Shown: positions 1-48,951 of the stretch, in pieces
Layout: each line of letters begins with the position of its first letter
Position numbering within the stretch: position 1 is the first letter of the stretch
Assembly: GCF_020711235.1 (NCBI RefSeq)
Contig: NZ_JAJFAV010000013.1
Coordinates: 62,001 to 126,000, forward strand
Direction: 5' to 3'
DNA length: 64,000 bases
Source: Hymenobacter sp. 15J16-1T3B
GTDB taxonomy: Bacteria > Bacteroidota > Bacteroidia > Cytophagales > Hymenobacteraceae
The notes under the pieces: generated by a model
The model's input: the letters and a program-made list of their open reading frames with translations, nothing else
The model's database searches: none
Told to the model about the DNA's origin: nothing
Translations under genes and position numbers: made by a program

Positions 1-1920
1 CGTCAGCGTGAAGCCCGCACTGCCGGCCGCCACGGTGTTGGGCGAAAGGCTGGTCAGCGTCGGGGCCGGGTTGGGCGCCGTCACCGTAAAGCTGGCCGTC
101 GAGGTAGCCGTGCCGCCGGGCGTGGTCACGGCAATGGTGCCCGAGCTGGCGCCAGTCGGCACCGTGGCCGTGATGCTCGTCGCCGAGTTGACCGTGAAGG
201 CCGTAGCGGCCGTGCCGTTAAACGACACTGCGGTTGCGCCCGTCAGGTTCGTCCCGGTGATGGTCACCACCGTGCCGACTGGGCCACTGGTGGGCGTGAA
301 GCTGGCAAGGGTTGGAGCGGCCGGCGTAGGCGTGGTCACGGTAAACGTTACCGCGCCGGAGGTACCGCCGCCGGGCGCCGGGTTGGTCACCGTTACATTA
401 TAAGTACCGGCCGTAGCAATAGCTGAGGCCGGCACCGCCGCCGTCAGCGAGGTAGCCGAGCCAAACGTGGTCGTCAGGGCCGTGCCGTTGAAGTTTACCA
501 CCGAGCCGGCGACGAAGCCGGTACCGGTCACCGTCAGCGTGAAGCCCGCACTGCCGGCCACGGCGGTGTTGGGCGAAACGGCCGTGATGGTCGGGGCCGG
601 GTTGGGCACCGTTACGGTGAAAGAGGCCGTCGAGGTAGCCGTGCCGCCGGGCGTGGTCACGGCAATGGTGCCCGAGCTGGCACCCGTCGGCACCGTGGCC
701 GTGATGCTCGTCGCCGAGTTGACCGTGAAGCTCGTCGCGGCCGTGCCGTTAAACGACACTGCGGTTGCGCCCGTCAGATCGGTGCCGGTGATGGTCACCA
801 CCGTGCCGACCGGGCCGCTGGTGGGCGCGAAGCTGGCAATGGTCGGGGCCGCCGGCGTCGGGGTGGTCACGGTAAACGTTACCGCGCCGGAGGTGCCGCC
901 GCCGGGAGCCGGGTTGGTCACCGTTACATTATAAATGCCGGCCGTGGCAACAGAGGTGGCGGGTACGGTGGCCGTCAACTGCGTGGCCGAGACGAAGGTC
1001 GTGGTCAAAGCCACGCCGTTGAAATTGACAACGGAACCGGCGACAAATCCGGTGCCGGTGGCCGTGAGCGTGAAGCCGGCGCTGCCGGCCACGGCGGTGT
1101 TGGGCGAAAGGCTGGTCAGCGTCGGGGCCGGGTTGGGCGCCGTCACCGTAAAGCTGACCGTCGAGGTGGCCGTGCCGCCCGGGGTGGTCACGGCAATGGC
1201 GCCGGAGGTGGCGCCCGTCGGCACGGTGGCCGTGATGCTCGTCGCCGAGTTGACCGTGAAGGCCGTAGCGGCCGTGCCGTTAAACGACACTGCGGTTGCG
1301 CCCGTCAGGTTCGTCCCGGTGATAGTCACCACCGTGCCGACTGGGCCACTGGTGGGCGTGAAGCTGGCAAGGGTCGGAGCGGGCGTCGCCGAAGTTACCG
1401 TAAAAGGTAGCGGAGCCGAGGTGCCGCCGCCCGGGGCGGGGTTGGTTACGGTCACATCGTAGGTCCCGGCCGTAGCCACGGCCGAGGCCGGCACCGCCGC
1501 CGTTAGTTGAGCCGTGTTTACATAGGTGGTCGTCAGGGCCGTGCCGTTGAAGTTCACCACCGAAGCCGCCGAGAAATTCGAGCCGGTCACCGTGAGCGTG
1601 AAGCCGGCGCTGCCGGCCACGGCGGTGTTGGGCGAAAGGCTGGTCAGCGTCGGGGCCGGGTTGGGCGCCGTCACCGTAAAGCTCAGGCTGGACGTAGCCG
1701 TGCCGCCGGGCGTGGTCACGGCAATGGTGCCCGAGCTGGCGCCCGTCGGCACCGTGGCCGTGATGCTCGTCGCCGAGTTAACCGTGAAGCTCGTCGCGGC
1801 CGTGCCGTTGAAGCTGACGGCCGTGGCCCCGGTGAAGTTGGAGCCGAGAATGGTCACCACCGTACCGGCCGGTCCGCTCAGGGGCGAGAAGCTGGCAATG
1901 GAAGGCGTTTGGCTAGCCGC
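1..1920. repeat. Tandem 531-bp repeat (paired IPT/TIG domains)
   Basis: About 3.6 copies of a 528-531 bp unit. The landmark GTGTTGGGCGAAA starts at 35, 566, 1097 and 1625, giving steps of 531, 531 and 528. Each unit encodes two different IPT/TIG domains (~177 residues together). Copies are near-identical over long stretches, which points to recent duplication or gene conversion. The array continues past the left edge. Confidence 0.9.
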
Positions 1921-8466: not shown

Positions 8467-8489
8467 GGTGGAGGATACCGGACCCGAAC
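8467..8489. other. attL: duplicated tRNA-Ala 3' end
   Basis: GGTGGAGGATACCGGA (8467-8482) is identical to 48876-48891 in the tRNA gene. After two mismatches (CC for TT) CGAAC also matches. To its left lies the host terminator, to its right the integrase gene. Confidence 0.88.
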
Positions 8490-8516: not shown

Positions 8517-9884
8517 TCAGGAGGCGGCTTTTTCGGGGTTGTGGGGGTGCGTATTGGACGCGGGTTGTTCGCCCGCGGCCAACGGTTGTTTTACCTGTGT
8601 TTTACCCAGCGAGCCGTACACCTGGCGCGCCGCGTCGTCGATGACGTGGGTGTCGAGGTCCTTCAAATAGAGCTGGGTGGTGCGCGTGTTGGTGTGGCCC
8701 AGCAGCCCGCCCACCTGGCGCAGGTCGCCTTTGAGCAGGCGCTCCGAGAAGGTGGCCAGCGTGCGGCGCGACACGTGGGAGCTGAACCGCTTCGTCCACT
8801 TGAGCCGGGCCGCGGCGCGGGCCAAGTTCATGTTGATCTTGGCCGTCTCCCGCTTGATGGTTTCGAGCTGCTGCTTGGGGTGCAGCTGCTCGAAGTCGGC
8901 CGGCAGAAACGGCAGAATGTAGCTCTCGGGGTGCGGCCGCGGCTGGCCCGGCGCCGGGGTGAACGTGTCGAGCAGCCCCTGCAGCTCTTCGGTTTCCTCC
9001 ACCTCCTTGACCCGGCCGCCCTTGTCCATCACGAAGCGCAGGCGCCCGCCGCGGCGGTCCTTCCATTTGAGCTTGAGGATGGCCCCGATGCGGGAGCCGT
9101 GGGCGTAGTACTGGAGCAGGAAGACGGTGCGCGCCGCGTGCTGGGCCGGGGCCAGGGTGGCCGCGGCCAGCTCGTCCAATTCCTCGCGGGTCAACCAGAC
9201 CCGCTTCGGCTTCGGGGTCGGGAAGTCGTAGAGGGCCATCGGGTCCTTGTCAAGCGTGAGCAGCTTCGCCCGGATGGCTTCCCGGATGAAGGTGTGCAGC
9301 ACCCGTAGGTTTTTGTTGGTGGTCGTCGGGCCGTTGTCGAGGTCCCGCTCCAAGTGCTGCTGGTAGCGCTGCACCAGCTCGGTGGTGAGCAGCGGCAGCG
9401 GCAAGGGCTTGCCCCCGAGCCAGGCGGCCAGCTTGTTGATGACCGGCCGGTAGCCGTCGATGGTGCCTTGGCTCCAGCCCGTCGTCTCCCTCCCCTTCCG
9501 GTGGGCCTCGTCGAGCGTGGCCTGCTCCGCGTCGAGGCGCCGGTAGCAGAAGGTCAAGAAGTCCGGCGCGGCCGGGTCGATGTCGCCGTTCTGCAGCGTG
9601 GCCTTCAGCTGGTCGGCCGACCAGTCGGGGTGTGCCGTGGCCAGCTTCTTGCCGCGGCGCACCCAGCTGTAGAGCGTTTCGTTGTGCTCAGCGTGGTCGT
9701 GGTGGCTGGTTTTGATCCAGTTCTCTTTGTCGAGCGTCGCCTTCGGGTTCCAGTGCTTGGCCGCCACCGCCACGCCCGTGTTGAGGTAGCGCACCACGCG
9801 GTCGGCCGTCACGCGCAGGCGCACGTCGAAGAGGCCGTCGCTGTCGGCTTTCGCAGCCAGCACGATTTTAAAGGTGGCGGGCAT
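8517..9884 (-). CDS. int: Tyrosine recombinase (phage integrase)
   Basis: A 455-residue site-specific recombinase that should integrate and excise this element at tRNA-Ala. The N-terminus (1-100) is an arm-DNA-binding domain of the Bacteroidota type, residues ~105-220 a SAM-like core-binding domain, and ~230-425 the catalytic domain. Visible catalytic residues are the Arg in 'HGSRIGAIL', the HxxR pair in 'SHVSRRT', the His in 'LLGHTNTRTT' and the nucleophile Tyr in 'QLYLKDL'. The tail is Pro/Ala-rich. It starts 1 nt past the repressor stop, so both are one minus-strand operon. It lies 28 bp from attL. Two TGTTTTACC sites overlap its 3' end. Confidence 0.95.
   Translation of the reverse strand: MPATFKIVLAAKADSDGLFDVRLRVTADRVVRYLNTGVAVAAKHWNPKATLDKENWIKTSHHDHAEHNETLYSWVRRGKKLATAHPDWSADQLKATLQNGDIDPAAPDFLTFCYRRLDAEQATLDEAHRKGRETTGWSQGTIDGYRPVINKLAAWLGGKPLPLPLLTTELVQRYQQHLERDLDNGPTTTNKNLRVLHTFIREAIRAKLLTLDKDPMALYDFPTPKPKRVWLTREELDELAAATLAPAQHAARTVFLLQYYAHGSRIGAILKLKWKDRRGGRLRFVMDKGGRVKEVEETEELQGLLDTFTPAPGQPRPHPESYILPFLPADFEQLHPKQQLETIKRETAKINMNLARAAARLKWTKRFSSHVSRRTLATFSERLLKGDLRQVGGLLGHTNTRTTQLYLKDLDTHVIDDAARQVYGSLGKTQVKQPLAAGEQPASNTHPHNPEKAAS
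8587..8606. promoter_or_regulatory. Candidate integrase arm-binding sites, left end
   Basis: TGTTTTACC occurs twice here (8587-8595, 8598-8606) with an 11-bp period. The same pair with the same period recurs at 48799-48818, near the other end. Sites of this kind near both ends of an element fit arm-type sites for integrase. Confidence 0.55.
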
Positions 9885-9885
9885 G

Positions 9886-10650
9886 CTATCGAATCGGCAC
9901 GTCTACGCCTCGGATTACACGCCACATGCCATGGATGTCGTCGATGATTACTTCCTCGACACCGCCTTCTGGATTGTCGGACTCAAGAAGCACCTTGCCA
10001 GTGCTTCGAAGGGTGTTGTGCTTGATGCGCTTGATGACAAAGTGATGTTTGAAAATCACGATGTAAACACCTGGGCGGGCATCTTTCCACGCATCTACGT
10101 TGGGCAGCTCTTCAACTAGCACTTTCATGCCTGAGCGAAGCTGCGGTTCCATCGAATCACCGTCGATATCGACGACCAGTCCTTCGTCTGGGTCGCCAAC
10201 CATGCGAATGACTGGAAAGAGCGGCAGTTCATTGTAATTGTAATCGCTCATAAATGACTCGCTGAACCCGGCGCGGGCTCCTACTTCAAGACGGCGGTAA
10301 TACACCATCTCCTTTTTATCAAATAGCGCGACGAATCGAGCATTGCTTTTGTCCGACATCAGCGGACCATATGGGTGGTCCTCCGGCAGCGCTTTCATTG
10401 CCGGCGCAGGGTGGCGCCCTGTCTCAATAAACTCCACGGTGGTACCGTATAGCTCAGCCAACTTGCGCAGCACTGGGCGCTTGATTTGAATAGAATCATC
10501 CGCTTCATATGCGGAGAGACTTGCGGCACTCACCTTGAGTCCTGCCTCTTTCAATTTCTCAGAAATCTTACGCTGAGACCAACCTGTTTCTAGACGCAGC
10601 TGCGTCAGTCGATCGGCCCGTTTTGCTGTCATAGCGGCTGTGGGAGGCAT
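9886..10650 (-). CDS. CI/LexA-like phage repressor (HTH plus S24 peptidase)
   Basis: It should hold the prophage silent and be inactivated by RecA-stimulated self-cleavage after DNA damage. An N-terminal XRE-type helix-turn-helix (~residues 10-75, 'GWSQRKISEKLKEAG...AASLSAYE') is joined to an S24 domain. That domain has the nucleophile Ser in 'GDSMEP', the general-base Lys in 'HFVIKRIKHNTL', and a plausible Ala-Gly cleavage site in 'GARAGFSE'. ATG 10650 is preferred to an in-frame TTG at 10677; ATG 10632 is also possible. The start overlaps an operator half-site, which suggests autoregulation. It is cotranscribed with the integrase. Confidence 0.9.
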   Translation of the reverse strand: MPPTAAMTAKRADRLTQLRLETGWSQRKISEKLKEAGLKVSAASLSAYEADDSIQIKRPVLRKLAELYGTTVEFIETGRHPAPAMKALPEDHPYGPLMSDKSNARFVALFDKKEMVYYRRLEVGARAGFSESFMSDYNYNELPLFPVIRMVGDPDEGLVVDIDGDSMEPQLRSGMKVLVEELPNVDAWKDARPGVYIVIFKHHFVIKRIKHNTLRSTGKVLLESDNPEGGVEEVIIDDIHGMWRVIRGVDVPIR

Positions 10651-10736
10651 GTTCAGAAGAGCGGTGTGACTGAACAAAACAAGCCGGTATTGTTCGTATC
10701 GTGAAACTATTTCTAGTAACTACTAGTAATGTTCAG
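10650..10736. promoter_or_regulatory. Lysogeny operator region with repeated TGTTCAG half-sites
   Basis: TGTTCAG at 10650-10656 pairs with CTGAACA at 10670-10676. TTGTTC lies at 10690-10695 and TGTTCAG again at 10730-10736. Starts are near 10650, 10670, 10690 and 10730, multiples of about 20 bp. A CTAGTA-N2-TACTAG palindrome (10713-10726) and GAAA-N3-TTTC (10703-10713) lie between. This is the divergent control region between repressor and early genes. Confidence 0.65.
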
Positions 10737-26353: not shown

Positions 26354-27865
26354 TTAGAAAGCGCGTTGGTGCACGTCGGACCGGTCCCCGACGGCGGGTT
26401 TGTTGGAGCCCTGGCGCTGGTAGGCCGACCATTCGGCCTTGAAGCAGCGGCAGAGGAAGTAGTCGTTGGCGTCGCTGGGGTGGCCGTAGGGCTCGTAGCT
26501 GATTTTGAGGGTCGGGTGCATGACCTTCTTTTTCTCCTTCGTCCCGTCGCTGGCCTTCTTCACCTTCTGGTAGTCCGTGCTGGTCACGTTGCACTTGCGG
26601 TCGAAGCGCAGCACGATGCCGCCGGCGCTGGGCTTGTCGGCCGGCGCCTGGCCGTCCTGCTCCAGCAGCTCGTCAATCCAGAGGCCGCGCATCGACACCG
26701 ACGGCGCGGAGGCCTCCACCCGCAGCGTGACCTTGGGCAGCTTCTTCAGCTCCTTGACCACGATGGTGTAGTCGTTGCTGCCCTGCTCGGTGCGCGTGTC
26801 GCCGTGCTTGCCTGCCGGGTCGCCGTACACAAACACCTCGGCCCGGTGGCTGCCGTACTTGCGCATGAAGGCCTGGCAGGCCAGCGAGGTCTTGCCGTGC
26901 TGGCAGAACTCGTCTATCTGGGTGGCCACTTTGCCCTGCACCTGCCACACGTTGAGCGTGACGTAGGGCGTGAGGTTGAAGTCGAACGTGATGTGCAGCG
27001 CGAGGCCCGGGTCGTAGGTGTAGTCGCCCACGTGCCGCTCCGTGTCGTAGCTTGGGTAGAATTCCCCGCCCGTTTTCTCCACGGCGTTCCAGTCGCCTTC
27101 CAGCAGGCGCTGCCGGTCGTAGGGCTTCAGCTGCTCCAGGCTCTTTTTGTAGATGCGCACGAACTCCCGGTCGGGGTTGTCCGTCACCAGCGCCTGAATA
27201 ACGCGCTGGTAGGGCTTGAGCTGGACGGGGTTGTTTTCCTTGTCGTAGACGTATTTCAGGCGCACCCAGGTGTAGCCCGGGTTGCAGGTGATGAGCATTT
27301 TCGGGATGAGCCCGAACTCGGCCAGCTTCCAGCGGATGCGGGATTTTAGGATGTCGGCGCCCTTCTCGGGCACGCCGTCGTTGGCCTCCTCGATCCACAC
27401 GTCGGTAATTTCCAACGAGCCCAGGCGCTGGTAGTCTTCGTCGGCCGGGCTGAAGGCCAGCTCCTTGAAAATCTCCCGGCTGCCGTTGTTGAACACCAGC
27501 GCCTCCGGCGCGCCCGAGCGGGAAATGTAGCGGTAGTCCTGGCCCATCACGAGCCCCCACTCGGCCAGCACTTTGAAGTAGGTCACGAGGGTGGACTCCT
27601 TGATGTCGATCAGGCGCGTACGGGCCGTCACGCCGCGGCTGTCGTCGTAGCGCAGGCGGCGGTACACCTTCCACGAGGCGCCCAGGTAGCTCTTGCCGCC
27701 GCCGGCCGCCCCGCCGTACATCACTTCCTCCGTGGTGCCGTCCTCCAAGGCCTGCCAGGCCAGGTGCTGCTTCCAGCTGGGCCGGAAGTTGATGCCGGCC
27801 GACTCGAAGTGGGCCGCGTCCTCCCGGGCCTTCCGCTTCGCGGCCGCCTTTGCTTTATTGGCCAT
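26354..27865 (-). CDS. Terminase large subunit
   Basis: A 503-residue DNA-packaging motor. ATPase: Walker A-like 'GGAAGGGKS' (residues ~51-59), Walker B 'VWIEEAN'. Nuclease: Asp in 'ITFDFNLTPY', Asp in 'VYGDPAG' and Asp near 'DANDYF', the RNase H-like triad. Full length. It overlaps the small-subunit gene by 11 nt. The packaging mode (headful or cohesive) cannot be read from the sequence. Confidence 0.94.
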   Translation of the reverse strand: MANKAKAAAKRKAREDAAHFESAGINFRPSWKQHLAWQALEDGTTEEVMYGGAAGGGKSYLGASWKVYRRLRYDDSRGVTARTRLIDIKESTLVTYFKVLAEWGLVMGQDYRYISRSGAPEALVFNNGSREIFKELAFSPADEDYQRLGSLEITDVWIEEANDGVPEKGADILKSRIRWKLAEFGLIPKMLITCNPGYTWVRLKYVYDKENNPVQLKPYQRVIQALVTDNPDREFVRIYKKSLEQLKPYDRQRLLEGDWNAVEKTGGEFYPSYDTERHVGDYTYDPGLALHITFDFNLTPYVTLNVWQVQGKVATQIDEFCQHGKTSLACQAFMRKYGSHRAEVFVYGDPAGKHGDTRTEQGSNDYTIVVKELKKLPKVTLRVEASAPSVSMRGLWIDELLEQDGQAPADKPSAGGIVLRFDRKCNVTSTDYQKVKKASDGTKEKKKVMHPTLKISYEPYGHPSDANDYFLCRCFKAEWSAYQRQGSNKPAVGDRSDVHQRAF

Positions 27866-34865: not shown

Positions 34866-34899
34866 GAGGCGGGCCGCCCTTGGGCCGCCCGCCTCTTTT
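34866..34899 (+). terminator. Terminator/attenuator between chaperone and tape-measure genes
   Basis: A 9-bp perfect stem GAGGCGGGC/GCCCGCCTC (34866-34874 with 34887-34895), with a further inner stem, followed by TTTTGTTT. It begins 1 nt past the chaperone extension stop and ends 8 nt before the tape-measure ATG. It probably lowers transcription of the distal tail genes. Confidence 0.75.
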
Positions 34900-34906
34900 G
34901 TTTCCC

Positions 34907-36661
34907 ATGAATAGCCTGCTCACCTACACGCTCCAGCTGAAAGACCTCATCACCGCCCCGCTGCGCCGGGCCGGCGTGGTGGGGGATTCGTCGCTCGGCA
35001 AGGTGACGCAGGCCGCCCAGCGGGCCCAGCGCGCCGCCGGCAGCGTAGGAACGGGCTTCACCGCGGCCATGGCCAAGGTGTCCAGCGCCACCACGAAGGC
35101 CACCACCAACCTGACGGCACTCGAAATCAAGCTCAACACGCTCCGGCAACAGCGGGCCGTCTCGCTCGACATCAAGGACATTGCCCGCGCCAACCGCGCC
35201 ATCCAGGAGGTCGAGCAGCGCATGGAGCACCTGGAAAACGTCGGCCGGCGCAAGTCGGGTGGCGGCTTCGGCATGGGCGGCCTGCTCGGGGGCCTGACCA
35301 TCGGCGCCGGCGTGCTGGGGCTGCTGGGCGGCGTGCGCGACACGGCAGCGCTGCAGGGCCAGCGCAACGCCATCACCTTCGCCAGCGGCACGGAAAAGCA
35401 GGGCGCGGCCACGTTGCAATACCTCAACCGCACCAGCGACCGGCTGGGCCTGAACCTGCAGGCGGCGACCGAAGGCTACAAAACCTTGTCGGGCGCCATG
35501 ATGGGCACCACGCTGCAAGGGCAAGCCACCCGCAAGATTTTCGAAGGCGTCTCGGCGGCCGGCACGGTGATGGGGCTCGGCGCGGAAGATCAGAAGGGCA
35601 CCCTGCTCGCCCTGGGCCAAATGATGTCCAAGGGCAAGGTGAGCGCCGAAGAACTCAACGGGCAGCTGGGCGAGCGGCTGCCCGGGGCCTTGGGCATTGC
35701 CAGCCGCGCCATGGGCGTGACCACGGCGCAGCTCATGGACATGATGAAGGACGGCAAGGTGCTGAGCCAAGACTTCCTGCCCAAGTTCGCGGCCGAGCTC
35801 CAGCGCACCTTCGGGCCGGGGCTGGCCAAGGCGACCAATTCGCTGCAGGCCAACCTGAACCGCTTCGACAACGAGTGGCTGGATACCAAAACCATTCTGG
35901 TGGAGGCCTTGCTCCCGGCCGTGTTGAAGACCATGCAGTGGCTGCGTGGGCTGATGGTCGTGGTGCGCGACGGGACCACGTTCGTGCGGGACTACGCCGC
36001 GGTGTTCGTGCCGCTCGTCTCGGGCATTGCGGCTTACATCGCCTACGTGAAGGTGGCCGCCGTCGTGACCAAGGTCTGGGAGGGCGTGATGTGGCTGCTC
36101 GACGCGGCCATGGCCGCCAACCCCATCGGCCTGGTGGTGGCCGCCATCGTGGCCCTGGTGGCCGGCATCATCTATTGCTGGAACACCTTCGAGGGCTTCC
36201 GCAGCTTCATCTACGCCTTTGCCTACGGGGCCATGGAGCTGTTTCGGGGCCTGGGCAACATCATTCAGGGCGCCTTTACCATCAACCCGGCGCAGATCAT
36301 CCAAGGCGTCAACCAGCTGAAGAACATCAAAAGCCGCTGGCAGACGGGCTGGGAGGACGGGCGCCGCTCGATGACCAGCGGCAGCAGCCTGGCCGAGTTC
36401 ATGGGCGGCGGCAAAGCCCCGGCCGGGGTCGGCGCGGGCGGCAGCGCCGCCGGCGTGGGCCTGGGCGACACCAAGGGGAAAGGCGGCGCGGCCGGCTCCG
36501 GCGGGGGCATTACCCACATCACCATCAACGTGGGCACGCTCGGCCAAATCACCCTGCACACCACCAACATCCAGGAAGGTGCGGACCAGATCAAGCAGCG
36601 CCTGCACACCGCCCTGCTCGAAGTGCTCAACGACGCCAACGCCATGACCACCGCCCACTAG
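34907..36661 (+). CDS. Tail tape measure protein
   Basis: A 584-residue protein that sets tail length. Residues ~25-120 are helical, ~130-330 carry the tape-measure core ('GLNLQAATEGYKTLSGAMMGTTLQGQATRKIFEGVSAAGTVMGL' and 'AEELNGQLGERLPGALGIASRAMG'), followed by hydrophobic helices (~375-440) and a Gly-rich hinge. At roughly 0.15 nm per residue the tail would be near 85 nm, short for a myophage. ATG 34907 follows the terminator. Confidence 0.9.
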   Translation: MNSLLTYTLQLKDLITAPLRRAGVVGDSSLGKVTQAAQRAQRAAGSVGTGFTAAMAKVSSATTKATTNLTALEIKLNTLRQQRAVSLDIKDIARANRAIQEVEQRMEHLENVGRRKSGGGFGMGGLLGGLTIGAGVLGLLGGVRDTAALQGQRNAITFASGTEKQGAATLQYLNRTSDRLGLNLQAATEGYKTLSGAMMGTTLQGQATRKIFEGVSAAGTVMGLGAEDQKGTLLALGQMMSKGKVSAEELNGQLGERLPGALGIASRAMGVTTAQLMDMMKDGKVLSQDFLPKFAAELQRTFGPGLAKATNSLQANLNRFDNEWLDTKTILVEALLPAVLKTMQWLRGLMVVVRDGTTFVRDYAAVFVPLVSGIAAYIAYVKVAAVVTKVWEGVMWLLDAAMAANPIGLVVAAIVALVAGIIYCWNTFEGFRSFIYAFAYGAMELFRGLGNIIQGAFTINPAQIIQGVNQLKNIKSRWQTGWEDGRRSMTSGSSLAEFMGGGKAPAGVGAGGSAAGVGLGDTKGKGGAAGSGGGITHITINVGTLGQITLHTTNIQEGADQIKQRLHTALLEVLNDANAMTTAH

Positions 36662-37246: not shown

Positions 37247-38218
37247 ATGCTGCGCCTCGTCTCGAAAATCACCATCGGCACGCTCGTGATTCCGTTCGTG
37301 CACGCGCTGGACATCGACAGCTCGTGGCAGACGCTCACCGACACGTGCACCATCAAGCTGCCGCGCAACATCCGCCTGCTCAACCGGGCCGGCCAGTTGC
37401 CCGACGCCATCAAGGTGGGCGACCGGGTGGTGGTGCAGTACGGCTACGCCCCGGCGCTGCGCACCGAGTTCACCGGCTACGTGGTGGGCGTGAAGGAAGG
37501 GCCGCCCTGCGAAATCCAATGCGAGGACGAGATGTGGCTGCTCAAGCGCAAGCCGCTGACCCATTCGTGGGGGCAGGTGTCGTTGCAGCAGCTGCTGGAG
37601 TACGTACGCACCCAGAGCGGCCACGCGTTTGAGATCCAAACGCTCGGCGCCACCGACCTGGGCAAGTTCGTGGCCAACAAAGCCACCGGGGCCCAGATTC
37701 TCGACTCGCTCCGGAAAGATTACGGCATCCGCTGCTTTTTCCGCGGCGGGGTGCTCATTGCCGGCGACCCGTACCAGGCGCTGACCGGGGCGCCCCGCCA
37801 CCAACTGGCCTTCCGCCGCAACGTCATCAGCAGCGATTTGCAGTACGTGCGCGAGCAGGACGTGCGGGTGAAAATCCGCGCCATCAGCCACGTGCAGGGC
37901 CGCAAGAAAGGCCGCAAGCGGCTGGTGGCCGAGGCCGGCGACAAGCTGGACGGCGAGCTGCGCACCTACAACTACATGGGGCTGGACCAAGCCCAGCTGC
38001 AGGCCCGCGCCGACGCCGAGGCCAAGCGGCTGCGCTTCGACGGCTACCGCGGCACGGTGACCACGTTCGGCGAGCCGCTGGTGGAGCACGGCCACGTCGT
38101 GACCATCCTCGACCCCGACTACCCGGCCCGCAGCGGCGACTACGCCGTGGATAAGGTCACCAAGAGCTTCGGCGTGGGCGGCAGCCGGCGCGTCATCACC
38201 CTGGGCCCGAAAGCATGA
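37247..38218 (+). CDS. Baseplate hub protein (gpD/gp27-like)
   Basis: A 323-residue protein. 'WQTLTDTCTIKLPRNI', 'IKVGDRVVVQYGYAPALRTEFTGYVVGVKEGPPCEIQCEDEMWLL', and 'VTILDPDYPARSGDYAVDKVTKSFGVGGSRRVITLG' are the pattern of phage late control D/T4 gp27-like hub proteins. It should form the trimeric base that holds the spike. The next gene starts within its last codons. Confidence 0.82.
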   Translation: MLRLVSKITIGTLVIPFVHALDIDSSWQTLTDTCTIKLPRNIRLLNRAGQLPDAIKVGDRVVVQYGYAPALRTEFTGYVVGVKEGPPCEIQCEDEMWLLKRKPLTHSWGQVSLQQLLEYVRTQSGHAFEIQTLGATDLGKFVANKATGAQILDSLRKDYGIRCFFRGGVLIAGDPYQALTGAPRHQLAFRRNVISSDLQYVREQDVRVKIRAISHVQGRKKGRKRLVAEAGDKLDGELRTYNYMGLDQAQLQARADAEAKRLRFDGYRGTVTTFGEPLVEHGHVVTILDPDYPARSGDYAVDKVTKSFGVGGSRRVITLGPKA

Positions 38219-46021: not shown

Positions 46022-46351
46022 ATGCCCCTCACTCATTACGCCTTCCGCGCCCTCGGCCTTTTCGACCAGTGCTTCCACGTGCTCGACGAGGGCCAGTTCC
46101 TGCAGCAGCGCACCACGGCAGACGAGGGCGTGAAGCTCTACCACATGCCGGGCGGCAACCAAGGCAACGCCTACAACATCACGCGCTTTGCCAAAACGAG
46201 CCTGCTAGCGGCCCGGCGCACTCCGTGGAGGATTGCTCAGCCCCCCAACGTTCGACGTATCCCCGTAGGCGCAGAAGGTGCACCAACGGGCACCACCACG
46301 CGTGAGGCAGCTGCATGCATATTTTGGCTTACAAAAGAAGCTTTTAGTTAG
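46022..46351 (+). CDS. Small protein of unknown function, possibly truncated
   Basis: A 109-residue product. Residues 1-70 ('YAFRALGLFDQCFHVLDEGQFLQQRTTADEGVKLYHMPGGNQGNAYNITRF') look protein-like. The last ~40 residues are less convincing and run into the AT-rich gene, with which the end overlaps tail to tail by 8 bp. A change of base composition at about 46310 suggests the gene was cut by insertion of the AT-rich segment. Confidence 0.45.
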   Translation: MPLTHYAFRALGLFDQCFHVLDEGQFLQQRTTADEGVKLYHMPGGNQGNAYNITRFAKTSLLAARRTPWRIAQPPNVRRIPVGAEGAPTGTTTREAAACIFWLTKEAFS

Positions 46352-47666
46352 GCATACTTAGAATATCATCAAGATAGTCTATCGCCTTTCTCACACTTAA
46401 ATACGCATTGGTAGCCTCAATTGAATTTGCTGTAAATTTACTTCCATGTACAATTAAATTTCTAGGTGTCAACGCATTTTGCTTTAACTCTTTGTACACG
46501 TCGGTATTTACGAATTCAACTCCAGTCAATTCCAAAACAACTGAATCTAGAATCATGCTCATCGGCTTAGGATGACTATTATTATCTGCATCCTTGAACT
46601 TCATTAGCCGATCGAAGCTCTTTCTAGACATCTTTTTGACACCTAACGCCATATAGCGAATCCTTGGCTGTACCCAGCTTTCAAACAGAACAGCACTCTC
46701 AATAATAGCAATCTTCCATTCTTGCAACTCCAGTCTTTGCCTGATATTAATATCAAGTGTATCCAAAATATCAGGTGATGATATTTTGGATAATTCACTT
46801 CTTAAAATTCTGTCTTCTTCGTCTGGAAGTTTATTTTCATCATAATCACTTATGGTCAGCTTTGGCACAGTCAGCTCAGACAACACTATATTTTGAGCAT
46901 CTCTCCACGCTATTCTATAGGGCGAACACATATTCTCAGTAACATTTGTGATAAAATATGAATCGTTTAAAATCTTATATTGTTCAATGAACCTATTTAC
47001 AGCATAAATTGCCGTCTTGATGTATACATCACCGGAGTTAAATTCACGACTTACACCTCCACCTTTTTCATTGAAATTATCTCTAATATGCATATAGTGC
47101 TTTGACGAGTCGTTTTCTATTGCCAGCTTGACGTATTCATTAAAGTAAGCAGGGAATAATTCAACAAACACGCTCGAATACATAACCCTACCTGCGATAT
47201 CCCCTCTAGGAAAGCCAATCATTACTGGATCTTGAGCCTGATTTATTCTAGGAACAAACCCCATGTATACAAAAGAACCTGAATCGTTAGTCGCAATTCG
47301 ATATGGCTTTTTTATGTCATGCGGAACATAGACACCGTGTTTTACGTGCTTGCCTAAATCAGACACTTGAAGCGCCAATAACTTAGTGCCTTTAAAACCT
47401 GACTTTTCTAAAGACTCAGGAGTAACTAAAGGCAGGTAATGATACTGATGTTTAAATTCCTCTCCAGCGTCTTTAGCTTTTATATATTCCGAAATAATCC
47501 CACAACTAAAAGTATCATTGACAGCCACTAAAAATGGAAGATCAAAAAATACTTGGATCCGATTGGTGCGTTTTCGTATTAATTCCCATTGCTGGGAATA
47601 ATCCAGCGGATTCTTCGGATGGGAACTGAATTGTTGGAAGGAACGCTCTGCGTCTGAAATGGACAT
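46344..47666 (-). CDS. AT-rich gene for a HEPN-type protein, candidate defence gene
   Basis: A 440-residue protein. The gene is strikingly AT-rich compared with all its neighbours, a sign of transfer. The N-terminal ~280 residues are not recognised. The C-terminal ~130 residues are helical and contain 'LTPRNLIVHGSKF' (Arg402-His407), the RNxxxH form of the HEPN Rx4-6H ribonuclease motif. HEPN proteins often act as abortive-infection or toxin RNases. It lies in the cargo zone beside attR, where prophages often carry anti-phage genes. No antitoxin-like partner is adjacent. Function is inference. Confidence 0.72.
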   Translation of the reverse strand: MSISDAERSFQQFSSHPKNPLDYSQQWELIRKRTNRIQVFFDLPFLVAVNDTFSCGIISEYIKAKDAGEEFKHQYHYLPLVTPESLEKSGFKGTKLLALQVSDLGKHVKHGVYVPHDIKKPYRIATNDSGSFVYMGFVPRINQAQDPVMIGFPRGDIAGRVMYSSVFVELFPAYFNEYVKLAIENDSSKHYMHIRDNFNEKGGGVSREFNSGDVYIKTAIYAVNRFIEQYKILNDSYFITNVTENMCSPYRIAWRDAQNIVLSELTVPKLTISDYDENKLPDEEDRILRSELSKISSPDILDTLDINIRQRLELQEWKIAIIESAVLFESWVQPRIRYMALGVKKMSRKSFDRLMKFKDADNNSHPKPMSMILDSVVLELTGVEFVNTDVYKELKQNALTPRNLIVHGSKFTANSIEATNAYLSVRKAIDYLDDILSMPN

Positions 47667-47784
47667 AACGAGGAAGATTGTATGTAAGGGGAGATGTTGC
47701 GCTTGAAACTATCGTTTCACAAGCACTCCACCATAATGCAAAAAAGGCCCAGAATGGCCAAGTCTCTTTCAGTGGGATAGTCGC

Positions 47785-48153
47785 TCAGACGCGCACCACC
47801 AGCACCTCGGCCGGGTTACCCAACTTGGCCACGGCCGAGGCCCAGGACTGCTGCACGTCCCACAAGCCGCGGTGCGGGTCGTCCGGAAATTGGTAGTTCA
47901 TGTAGCCCACCCCGACGTAGAAGCCGGCGAGGTTGCGGTGCTGCCCAACCCAGTTGCGCAGGCGGTACAGCGGGGCCCGGTCGGGCGCATCGGCGAAGAG
48001 CACCTCGCCGCCGTTGGCCTGGATTTCCTTGCGGGCCCGCCATGCCGGTTCGCCCGCGCGCGGCGCCACCAAATAGAGCTGGCGCGACGCAGCGCCGGGG
48101 TACTGCGTGACGAGCAGCAGCCGCGGCCGCGGGCTGGGTGATGGAGAGTCCAT
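47785..48153 (-). CDS. Hypothetical cargo protein
   Basis: A 122-residue protein. 'RPRLLLVTQYPGAASRQLYLVAPRAGEPAWRARKEIQANGGEVLFADAPDRAPLYRLRNWVG' suggests an alpha/beta fold, unassigned. It follows the next upstream gene by 1 nt, forming a minus-strand trio at the right end of the prophage. Confidence 0.6.
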   Translation of the reverse strand: MDSPSPSPRPRLLLVTQYPGAASRQLYLVAPRAGEPAWRARKEIQANGGEVLFADAPDRAPLYRLRNWVGQHRNLAGFYVGVGYMNYQFPDDPHRGLWDVQQSWASAVAKLGNPAEVLVVRV

Positions 48154-48154
48154 G

Positions 48155-48418
48155 CTAGTACGTGCTCCAGCCGGCGGCCATGATGCGCTGGTGATAGTCC
48201 TCTAAGAGGTCCGGCTCCACTTTCGTGTCTCGGCAGGTGACCACCGCCGACTTGCGAATCGGGTCGTAGTGGGTAGCATACACGGCGACGGCCCAGATGT
48301 GGCTGATCGGGGTGGTCAGCAGACTATGCGGGGGCAGGATTACCAGCTCGTCCACCTGCAGATAATACTCGCGGTGCTCGTCTGGGGTCACCAGGGAAAA
48401 GGTGAACTTGGTTGGCAT
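48155..48418 (-). CDS. Hypothetical cargo protein with TACCTTCG promoter box
   Basis: An 87-residue protein ('FTFSLVTPDEHREYYLQVDELVILPPHSLL...HIWAVAVYATHYDPIRKSAVVTCRDTK'), beta-rich, family unknown. TACCTTCG (48423-48430 on the minus strand) lies 4 nt before its ATG, as for murI, so it likely has its own promoter. The downstream gene is coupled. Confidence 0.6.
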   Translation of the reverse strand: MPTKFTFSLVTPDEHREYYLQVDELVILPPHSLLTTPISHIWAVAVYATHYDPIRKSAVVTCRDTKVEPDLLEDYHQRIMAAGWSTY

Positions 48419-48436
48419 GCGTCGAAGGTATCCGCG

Positions 48437-48561
48437 TTTTCACTACGTTACAAAATCCGGGTTGCGGTAGGCCAGGCCCAGCAGCTGCCGGCGGCTGAGC
48501 TGCACCGGCTTGCCGTCCTTGCGCAGCGTGTAGGTGTCGTAGCCGTTTTTCACTACGTTAC
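48437..48561. repeat. 15-bp direct repeat, 110 bp apart
   Basis: TTTTCACTACGTTAC occurs at 48437-48451 and 48547-48561. The first copy contains the stop of the 105-residue gene, the second lies in its coding part. May be a chance product of a local duplication. Confidence 0.5.
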
Positions 48562-48760
48562 GAATCAGCTGCCAGCCCCGCTTGCGGCCGTGCGCGGTGG
48601 TGTAGGGCAAATGCCAGAGGCGCTTGCGCGCGTCGACGCCGTAGCCGTCGTACGGCGCCCGCAGCAACCATTTTAATTGCTCGATTCCGGCAGGCGGCTG
48701 GGGCTTGGCCTGGGGCAGCCGGGCCACGCGCTGGCCGTTGACAAAGTAGTAGTGTTTCAT
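48443..48760 (-). CDS. Hypothetical protein at the right end of the prophage
   Basis: A 105-residue basic protein ('MKHYYFVNGQRVARLPQ...GRKRGWQLIRNVVKNGYDTYTLRKDGKPVQLSRRQLLGLAYRN'). Repeated Tyr/Arg-rich beta-hairpins recall small DNA-binding (NUMOD-like) modules, but this is not certain. ATG 48760 is chosen over an earlier in-frame start. It is the last gene before attR. Confidence 0.6.
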   Translation of the reverse strand: MKHYYFVNGQRVARLPQAKPQPPAGIEQLKWLLRAPYDGYGVDARKRLWHLPYTTAHGRKRGWQLIRNVVKNGYDTYTLRKDGKPVQLSRRQLLGLAYRNPDFVT

Positions 48761-48798
48761 GCGGCCCGGCCGCCCCAAAGCCAGTGCGGGCGGCCTGT

Positions 48799-48874: not shown

Positions 48875-48951
48875 TGGTGGAGGATACCGGATTCGAACCG
48901 GTGACCTGTTGCGTGCGATGCAACCGCTCTAGCCAGCTGAGCTAAACCCCC
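48875..48951 (-). tRNA. tRNA-Ala (anticodon CGC)
   Basis: Read on the minus strand the gene runs from 48951 to 48875 with an encoded CCA. Arms fold: D stem GCTC/GAGC, anticodon stem GTTGC/GCAAC with loop ATCGCAC (anticodon CGC, codon GCG), T stem ACCGG/CCGGT with loop TTCGAAT. Acceptor GGGGGTT/ATCCTCC contains the G3-U70 pair that marks alanine tRNAs. Its 3' half is the prophage insertion site. Confidence 0.95.
48876..48898. other. attR: tRNA-Ala 3' end
   Basis: Shares GGTGGAGGATACCGGA (48876-48891) with attL and CGAAC after two mismatches. It covers the CCA end, acceptor strand and most of the T arm, so the tRNA stays whole after integration. Confidence 0.88.

Follow-up and report, generated by a model that had tools for sequence, protein, structure and literature searches.

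A HEPN gene in the cargo zone of a Hymenobacter tailed prophage, a candidate single-gene abortive-infection ribonuclease

The stretch of DNA analysed here (the window) comprises 64,000 nucleotides of Hymenobacter sp. 15J16-1T3B (contig NZ_JAJFAV010000013.1, positions 62,001 to 126,000). It carries a tailed prophage, and within this a gene for a 440-residue protein which is a candidate single-gene abortive-infection ribonuclease (RNase) of the HEPN kind (Table 1). The GC (guanine plus cytosine) content of the gene is 37.3%, against 65.0% in the remaining window, and the best low-GC segment extends about 80 bp beyond it. An earlier reading of the window, made without database searches (the sequence-only reading), had picked out this AT-rich composition and a C-terminal R-N-L-I-V-H motif; both are borne out, the motif occupying residues 402–407.

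Table 1. Features of the window, with positions in the window, strand and basis.
Feature	Position	Strand	Basis or remark
attL	8467..8489	.	23-bp repeat
Tyrosine integrase	8517..9884	-	phrog_1 1.1e-23; Pfam PF00589 5.1e-10
CI-like repressor	9886..10677	-	phrog_4 8.6e-22
Terminase large subunit	26354..27865	-	phrog_979 2.2e-18
Tape measure protein	34880..36661	+	phrog_2335 5.9e-53
Baseplate hub	37247..38218	+	phrog_4930 2.5e-74
Hybrid open reading frame made of two fused gene remnants, convergent with the HEPN gene	46022..46351	+	matches to parts of two proteins
Low-GC segment: HEPN gene and upstream region only (one-gene cassette)	46315..47745	.	maximum-scoring low-GC segment
HEPN gene, 440 residues, candidate single-gene abortive-infection RNase	46344..47666	-	ATG start; nine relatives
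Predicted C-terminal HEPN bundle, residues 293-440	46347..46790	-	AF2, VIA-align, weak PF18735
R402-N-L-I-V-H407, predicted RNase active-site motif	46446..46463	-	R, N, H invariant 10/10
N-terminal part, residues 1-290, family-conserved, no family match	46797..47666	-	
F-D-L-P-F motif, residues 41-45 of the N-terminal part	47532..47546	-	P44 invariant
tRNA-Ala (CGC), integration site	48875..48951	-	
attR, 3' end of tRNA-Ala	48876..48898	.	23-bp repeat

The window protein was aligned with nine relatives, which come from Bacteroidota apart from one encoded on a haloarchaeal plasmid. Nine of the 276 ungapped columns are invariant: M1, P44, N224, F226, Y230, E329, R402, N403 and H407. An additional R-x4-H is found at another place in two of the ten sequences, and a bare R-x4-H could be a matter of chance; the recurrence of R, N and H of RNxxxH in the same columns of all ten, at 18–37% identity to the window protein, is beyond it. 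Loss of RxxxxH from homologues had been named beforehand as evidence against a HEPN RNase, and every member retains the motif. The passages of Anantharaman et al. on the HEPN signature give it as an R followed by a polar residue, with H at R+5 (Rx4-6H) and often an acidic residue upstream; this second, acidic motif is typically Ex3[KR], in many but not all families (PMC3710099). The pattern of RNxxxH with an upstream glutamate (E329) is consistent with that signature, although the window protein lacks K/R at +4 and therefore the Ex3[KR] form. In the N-terminal part, F41 and L43 of the F-D-L-P-F motif are nearly invariant, and a second conserved stretch reads N224-x-F226-x3-Y230.

AlphaFold models of the window protein and of one relative, built from overlapping input alignments, both contain a C-terminal HEPN bundle; a predicted fold lacking this bundle had also been named beforehand as evidence against the idea, and neither model lacks it. 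In the window protein the predicted local distance difference test (pLDDT) score of the AF2 model is 72–95 across residues 301–440, and VIA-align superposes the C-terminal model on HEPN structures. By predicted fold and motif, the window protein is assigned to HEPN. Its N-terminal part is poorly modelled; that of one relative (L041; L, G and C numbers are our labels for loci, genomes and contigs) is predicted as an alpha+beta domain with no more than weak resemblances.

Searches against family models place the C-terminal part only loosely. PF18735 (RiboL-PSP-HEPN) scores 14.4 bits on residues 346–436 of the window protein, beneath its curated gathering cut-off of 28.4, and membership of that family was rejected; no other Pfam domain was matched. 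Across the ten members PF18735 gives weak matches in six (best 2.2e-4) and PF18731 (Swt1-like HEPN) in one (0.0094), and these are the best-matching HEPN models of the family. The window protein matches none of the families of PADLOC-DB 2.0.0 at E <= 1; among the ten members there are two weak PADLOC matches, each in one member, to CARF-HEPN (0.002) and to a methyltransferase (0.0083). NCBIfam likewise yields no family for the window protein and, among the members, at most weak matches in single proteins. The N-terminal part had been described as impossible to place, which proved correct: for residues 1–290 the models of Pfam, PADLOC, NCBIfam and PHROGs gave no hit at E <= 1, and these approximately 290 residues are conserved across the family. 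Pfam contains models of both AbiJ-NTD and ApeA-NTD. Neither came up for the window protein (E <= 1) or is among the families listed for the ten members (E <= 0.1); membership of either group, or kinship in fold, is possible.

The family is sparsely distributed. A whole-genome search with the protein found it in six of 204 genomes of its own bacterial family, its own genome included. Profile searches, run on overlapping genome samples, gave 5/390 genomes in the order, 2/395 in the phylum and 2/395 in the class, each with one new relative, and 1/196 in the family of genome G462, with none. In the order of G809 there were two hits among 44 genomes, including a HEPN protein whose N-terminal part is of another kind. 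The closest relative (L002/L012) shares 37% identity, and the archaeal one (L017) is encoded on plasmid 5 of Halalkalicoccus jeotgali. Matches with in-frame stops were not read through, L032 and L016 are one and the same locus, and L033 (G1080), whose N-terminal part differs, was excluded from the alignments. This last protein (L033 1348-2349), a HEPN protein with the motif TRNKIVH, adjoins an open reading frame (ORF) resembling, by eye, a type I restriction specificity subunit.

The element that carries the gene is a tailed prophage (Caudoviricetes) of 40.4 kb, with integrase, repressor, terminase, head protease, tail genes and att sites. Its borders are set by a 23-bp repeat, identical at 21 positions between attL and attR, and by the empty site in two congeners (L019, L020), in which the left flank (to window position 8489) joins the right flank (from 48874) over the same 25 bp, so that the uninterrupted site is seen directly. 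Of ten element proteins scanned against PHROGs, seven have a named phage function (tyrosine integrase, CI-like repressor, terminase, head maturation protease, tape measure, baseplate hub and tail fibre), one belongs to a family of unknown function and two are unmatched. The HEPN gene had been placed beside attR. That attR is real follows from the repeat, the tRNA-Ala end and the empty site, but the gene lies 1.2 kb inward of it, with three small GC-rich ORFs in between. Part of the small ORF adjoining attR (window 48457-48698) has a second copy in the same genome (G000:C22:202652-202893; 74% DNA identity), perhaps within another prophage. The leftmost part of the window (1-1901) contains direct repeats of about 530 bp, 83–86% identical.

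Downstream of the HEPN gene, the ORF at 46022 was thought to have been cut by the arrival of its neighbour. Sequence matches instead indicate a hybrid of two remnants. Residues 2–44 match a small protein of about 85 residues in relatives (L045, L046), and L038 has a small ORF similar to residues 1–48; residues 35–87 match the C-terminus of a lysin-like, 183-residue protein in L047, itself with a weak, below-cut-off match to CHAP (0.0066). The two halves join at a shared Y-H-x-x-G-G (Y-H-M-P-G-G), about 160 bp ahead of the low-GC segment. The ORF is therefore read from its sequence as a recombination scar next to the cassette in the prophage cargo zone, rather than as a gene simply cut by it.

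The position of the gene as cargo of a mobile element, also suggested earlier, recurs among the relatives, six of which (L012, L034, L035, L038, L039 and L017) lie on or near an integration or plasmid feature. In L012, by a tRNA-Met, the gene is flanked on one side by a resolvase (1.8e-42) and on the other by a tyrosine integrase (Pfam 5.1e-6, just below cut-off); the preceding ORFs look tail-like by eye, a tape measure among them, and this is therefore probably a prophage. Tyrosine-integrase-type genes lie about 5 kb from the L035 gene and adjacent to that of L039, while the L038 gene is located 400 bp past a transfer-messenger RNA gene and the plasmid gene of L017 adjoins one annotated DUF2971. 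In L042 an IS200-like transposase, not scored as an integration feature, lies about 2 kb upstream. The gene is lower in GC than its flanks in nine of ten loci, the exception being the plasmid.

A recognised defence gene stands beside two of the nine relatives, L034 and L036; this and the six above are raw counts with no matched control. In L034 (G078:C1:3685500-3702500), which has a tRNA-Asp about 4 kb off, an AbiGi gene (6e-29) and a PD-T4-10_B-like ORF (5.5e-24; 480 residues, matched at the N-terminus only) lie upstream on the same strand; with the HEPN relative they form a low-GC row that is a candidate small defence island. In L036 (8171-11035) an AriA/GajA-like ATPase follows the HEPN relative by 135 bp on the same strand, possibly as a two-gene version. 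On either side of the HEPN relative of L037 (7179-10070) is a very low-GC ORF with Cys-x2-Cys close to its start; both ORFs look HNH-like by eye and have no Pfam or PADLOC match. In an all-against-all blastp of the loci (E <= 1e-5), the HEPN gene is the sole gene present in every locus. Other matches join pairs or threes, namely a large unassigned ORF (L034, L035, L039), transporter-like ORFs (L036, L037) and one ORF of L037 and L039. No recurrent partner gene was found in this comparison, which fits a single-gene system.

Several known systems resemble this protein. RNase LS/RnlA is placed among the closest. The protein Tha, like the window protein, is a single prophage-carried protein with HEPN at its C-terminus; the published account of Tha-1 from Staphylococcus phage 80alpha describes an Abi-like RNase that minor tail proteins of phages set off, with an N-terminal part that the authors were unable to assign (PMC11087260). 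Tha-1 bears the motif R265NSIMH270, and the Tha gene adjoins int/xis. Tha is shorter, at 301 residues, and its likeness in sequence is confined to the R-N-x-I-x-H-G stretch; identity with Tha by sequence was rejected (hhalign probability 2.4% over 17 columns, BLASTP E 1.2 at best). A 61-residue ORF lies antisense to the HEPN gene (46757-46942, +), seen without a systematic search for an ith-1-like antisense inhibitor. The architecture also resembles that of AbiJ and ApeA, in which an alpha+beta or beta-rich N-terminal domain is fused to a C-terminal HEPN; such proteins are proposed to combine a sensor or inhibitor with a suicide RNase, the N-terminal domain meeting a viral component and perhaps also restraining the toxin domain (PMC3710099). 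An E. coli screen reports 12 of its 21 new defence systems from intact prophages (PMC9519451), and four of 31 further validated systems are reported to have HEPN domains (PMC13092281).

The proposal for N-terminal-domain–HEPN proteins (PMC3710099), the Tha precedent (PMC11087260) and prophage-borne defence (PMC9519451) lead us to consider it probable that the gene is lysogeny cargo (a ‘moron’) of the tailed prophage, encoding a one-protein HEPN-RNase abortive-infection system gated by its own N-terminal domain. In this reading its build is that of AbiJ/ApeA, and it may work like the prophage protein Tha. In a quiet lysogen, the N-terminal alpha+beta domain would keep the RNase inactive. On infection by a second phage, this domain would encounter part of the phage or a change that the phage brings about, freeing the RNase to cut bulk RNA. 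The cell would then halt or die ahead of phage progeny, protecting the lysogenic population and with it the prophage. The sequence-only reading had likewise favoured a single-gene abortive-infection RNase with a new sensor. The predicted HEPN bundle, invariant RNxxxH, unnamed N-terminal part, cargo position and lack of a recurrent partner uphold its outline, whereas RNase activity, a dimeric state, N-terminal gating or sensing and an anti-phage purpose are what we infer. A bolder version is offered tentatively: that the N-terminal domain is an undescribed pathogen-sensing domain, possibly with a TBP-like/helix-grip fold, which recognises some component of the phage directly and activates the attached HEPN RNase, as a one-polypeptide sensor-effector common to mobile elements of Bacteroidota and haloarchaea.

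HEPN proteins are also common as toxins (PMC3710099), and the protein could instead be the toxin of an addiction-type toxin-antitoxin pair or of a module that stabilises the prophage, with defence secondary. Its antitoxin would lie nearby, for example among the three small ORFs at 47785-48778, which are upstream and on the same strand; the relative L034 lies near AbiGi, an annotated antitoxin. Yet the ORFs at 47785, 48155 and 48443 are unmatched in all nine relative loci (tblastn E <= 0.01), and the ORF at 48158-48418 in 52 relatives searched outside its own genome (E <= 0.001). The low-GC segment, moreover, extends past the HEPN gene but stops short of these GC-rich ORFs, a border which suggests separate arrival. 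We regard a toxin of this kind as unlikely.

RNA processing, too, is served by HEPN domains (PMC3710099), and the gene sits in a prophage rather than in a classical defence island. A processing or regulatory protein of the element, acting for instance on transcripts of the prophage itself, would need no defence role, nor would a protein that binds RNA without catalysis. The invariance of the predicted active-site residues argues against it, as does the sporadic occurrence of the gene (5/203 other family genomes); its carriage by different elements and a plasmid fits cargo better than a core function, and the explanation appears improbable. The abutting hybrid ORF and a composition not adapted to the host might instead mark a passenger that is decaying or has only recently landed and that at present does nothing for this prophage. 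This is highly improbable, as the ORF is open at full length with every invariant residue present, and the closest relative is likewise open.

Proteins of the HEPN kind are familiar, and such systems keep appearing; in this case, though, the N-terminal domain is unnamed, the family extends to archaea and the protein falls in none of the library families. To our knowledge, the phages of this bacterial family have been little studied. If the self-gated RNase reading is true, it would add a compact RNase defence that takes a single gene and whose sensor domain is as yet unnamed. The defence library searched gave nothing for the window protein. The family is rare and divergent and spans bacteria and archaea, and it poses a short, testable question, namely what the N-terminal domain recognises.
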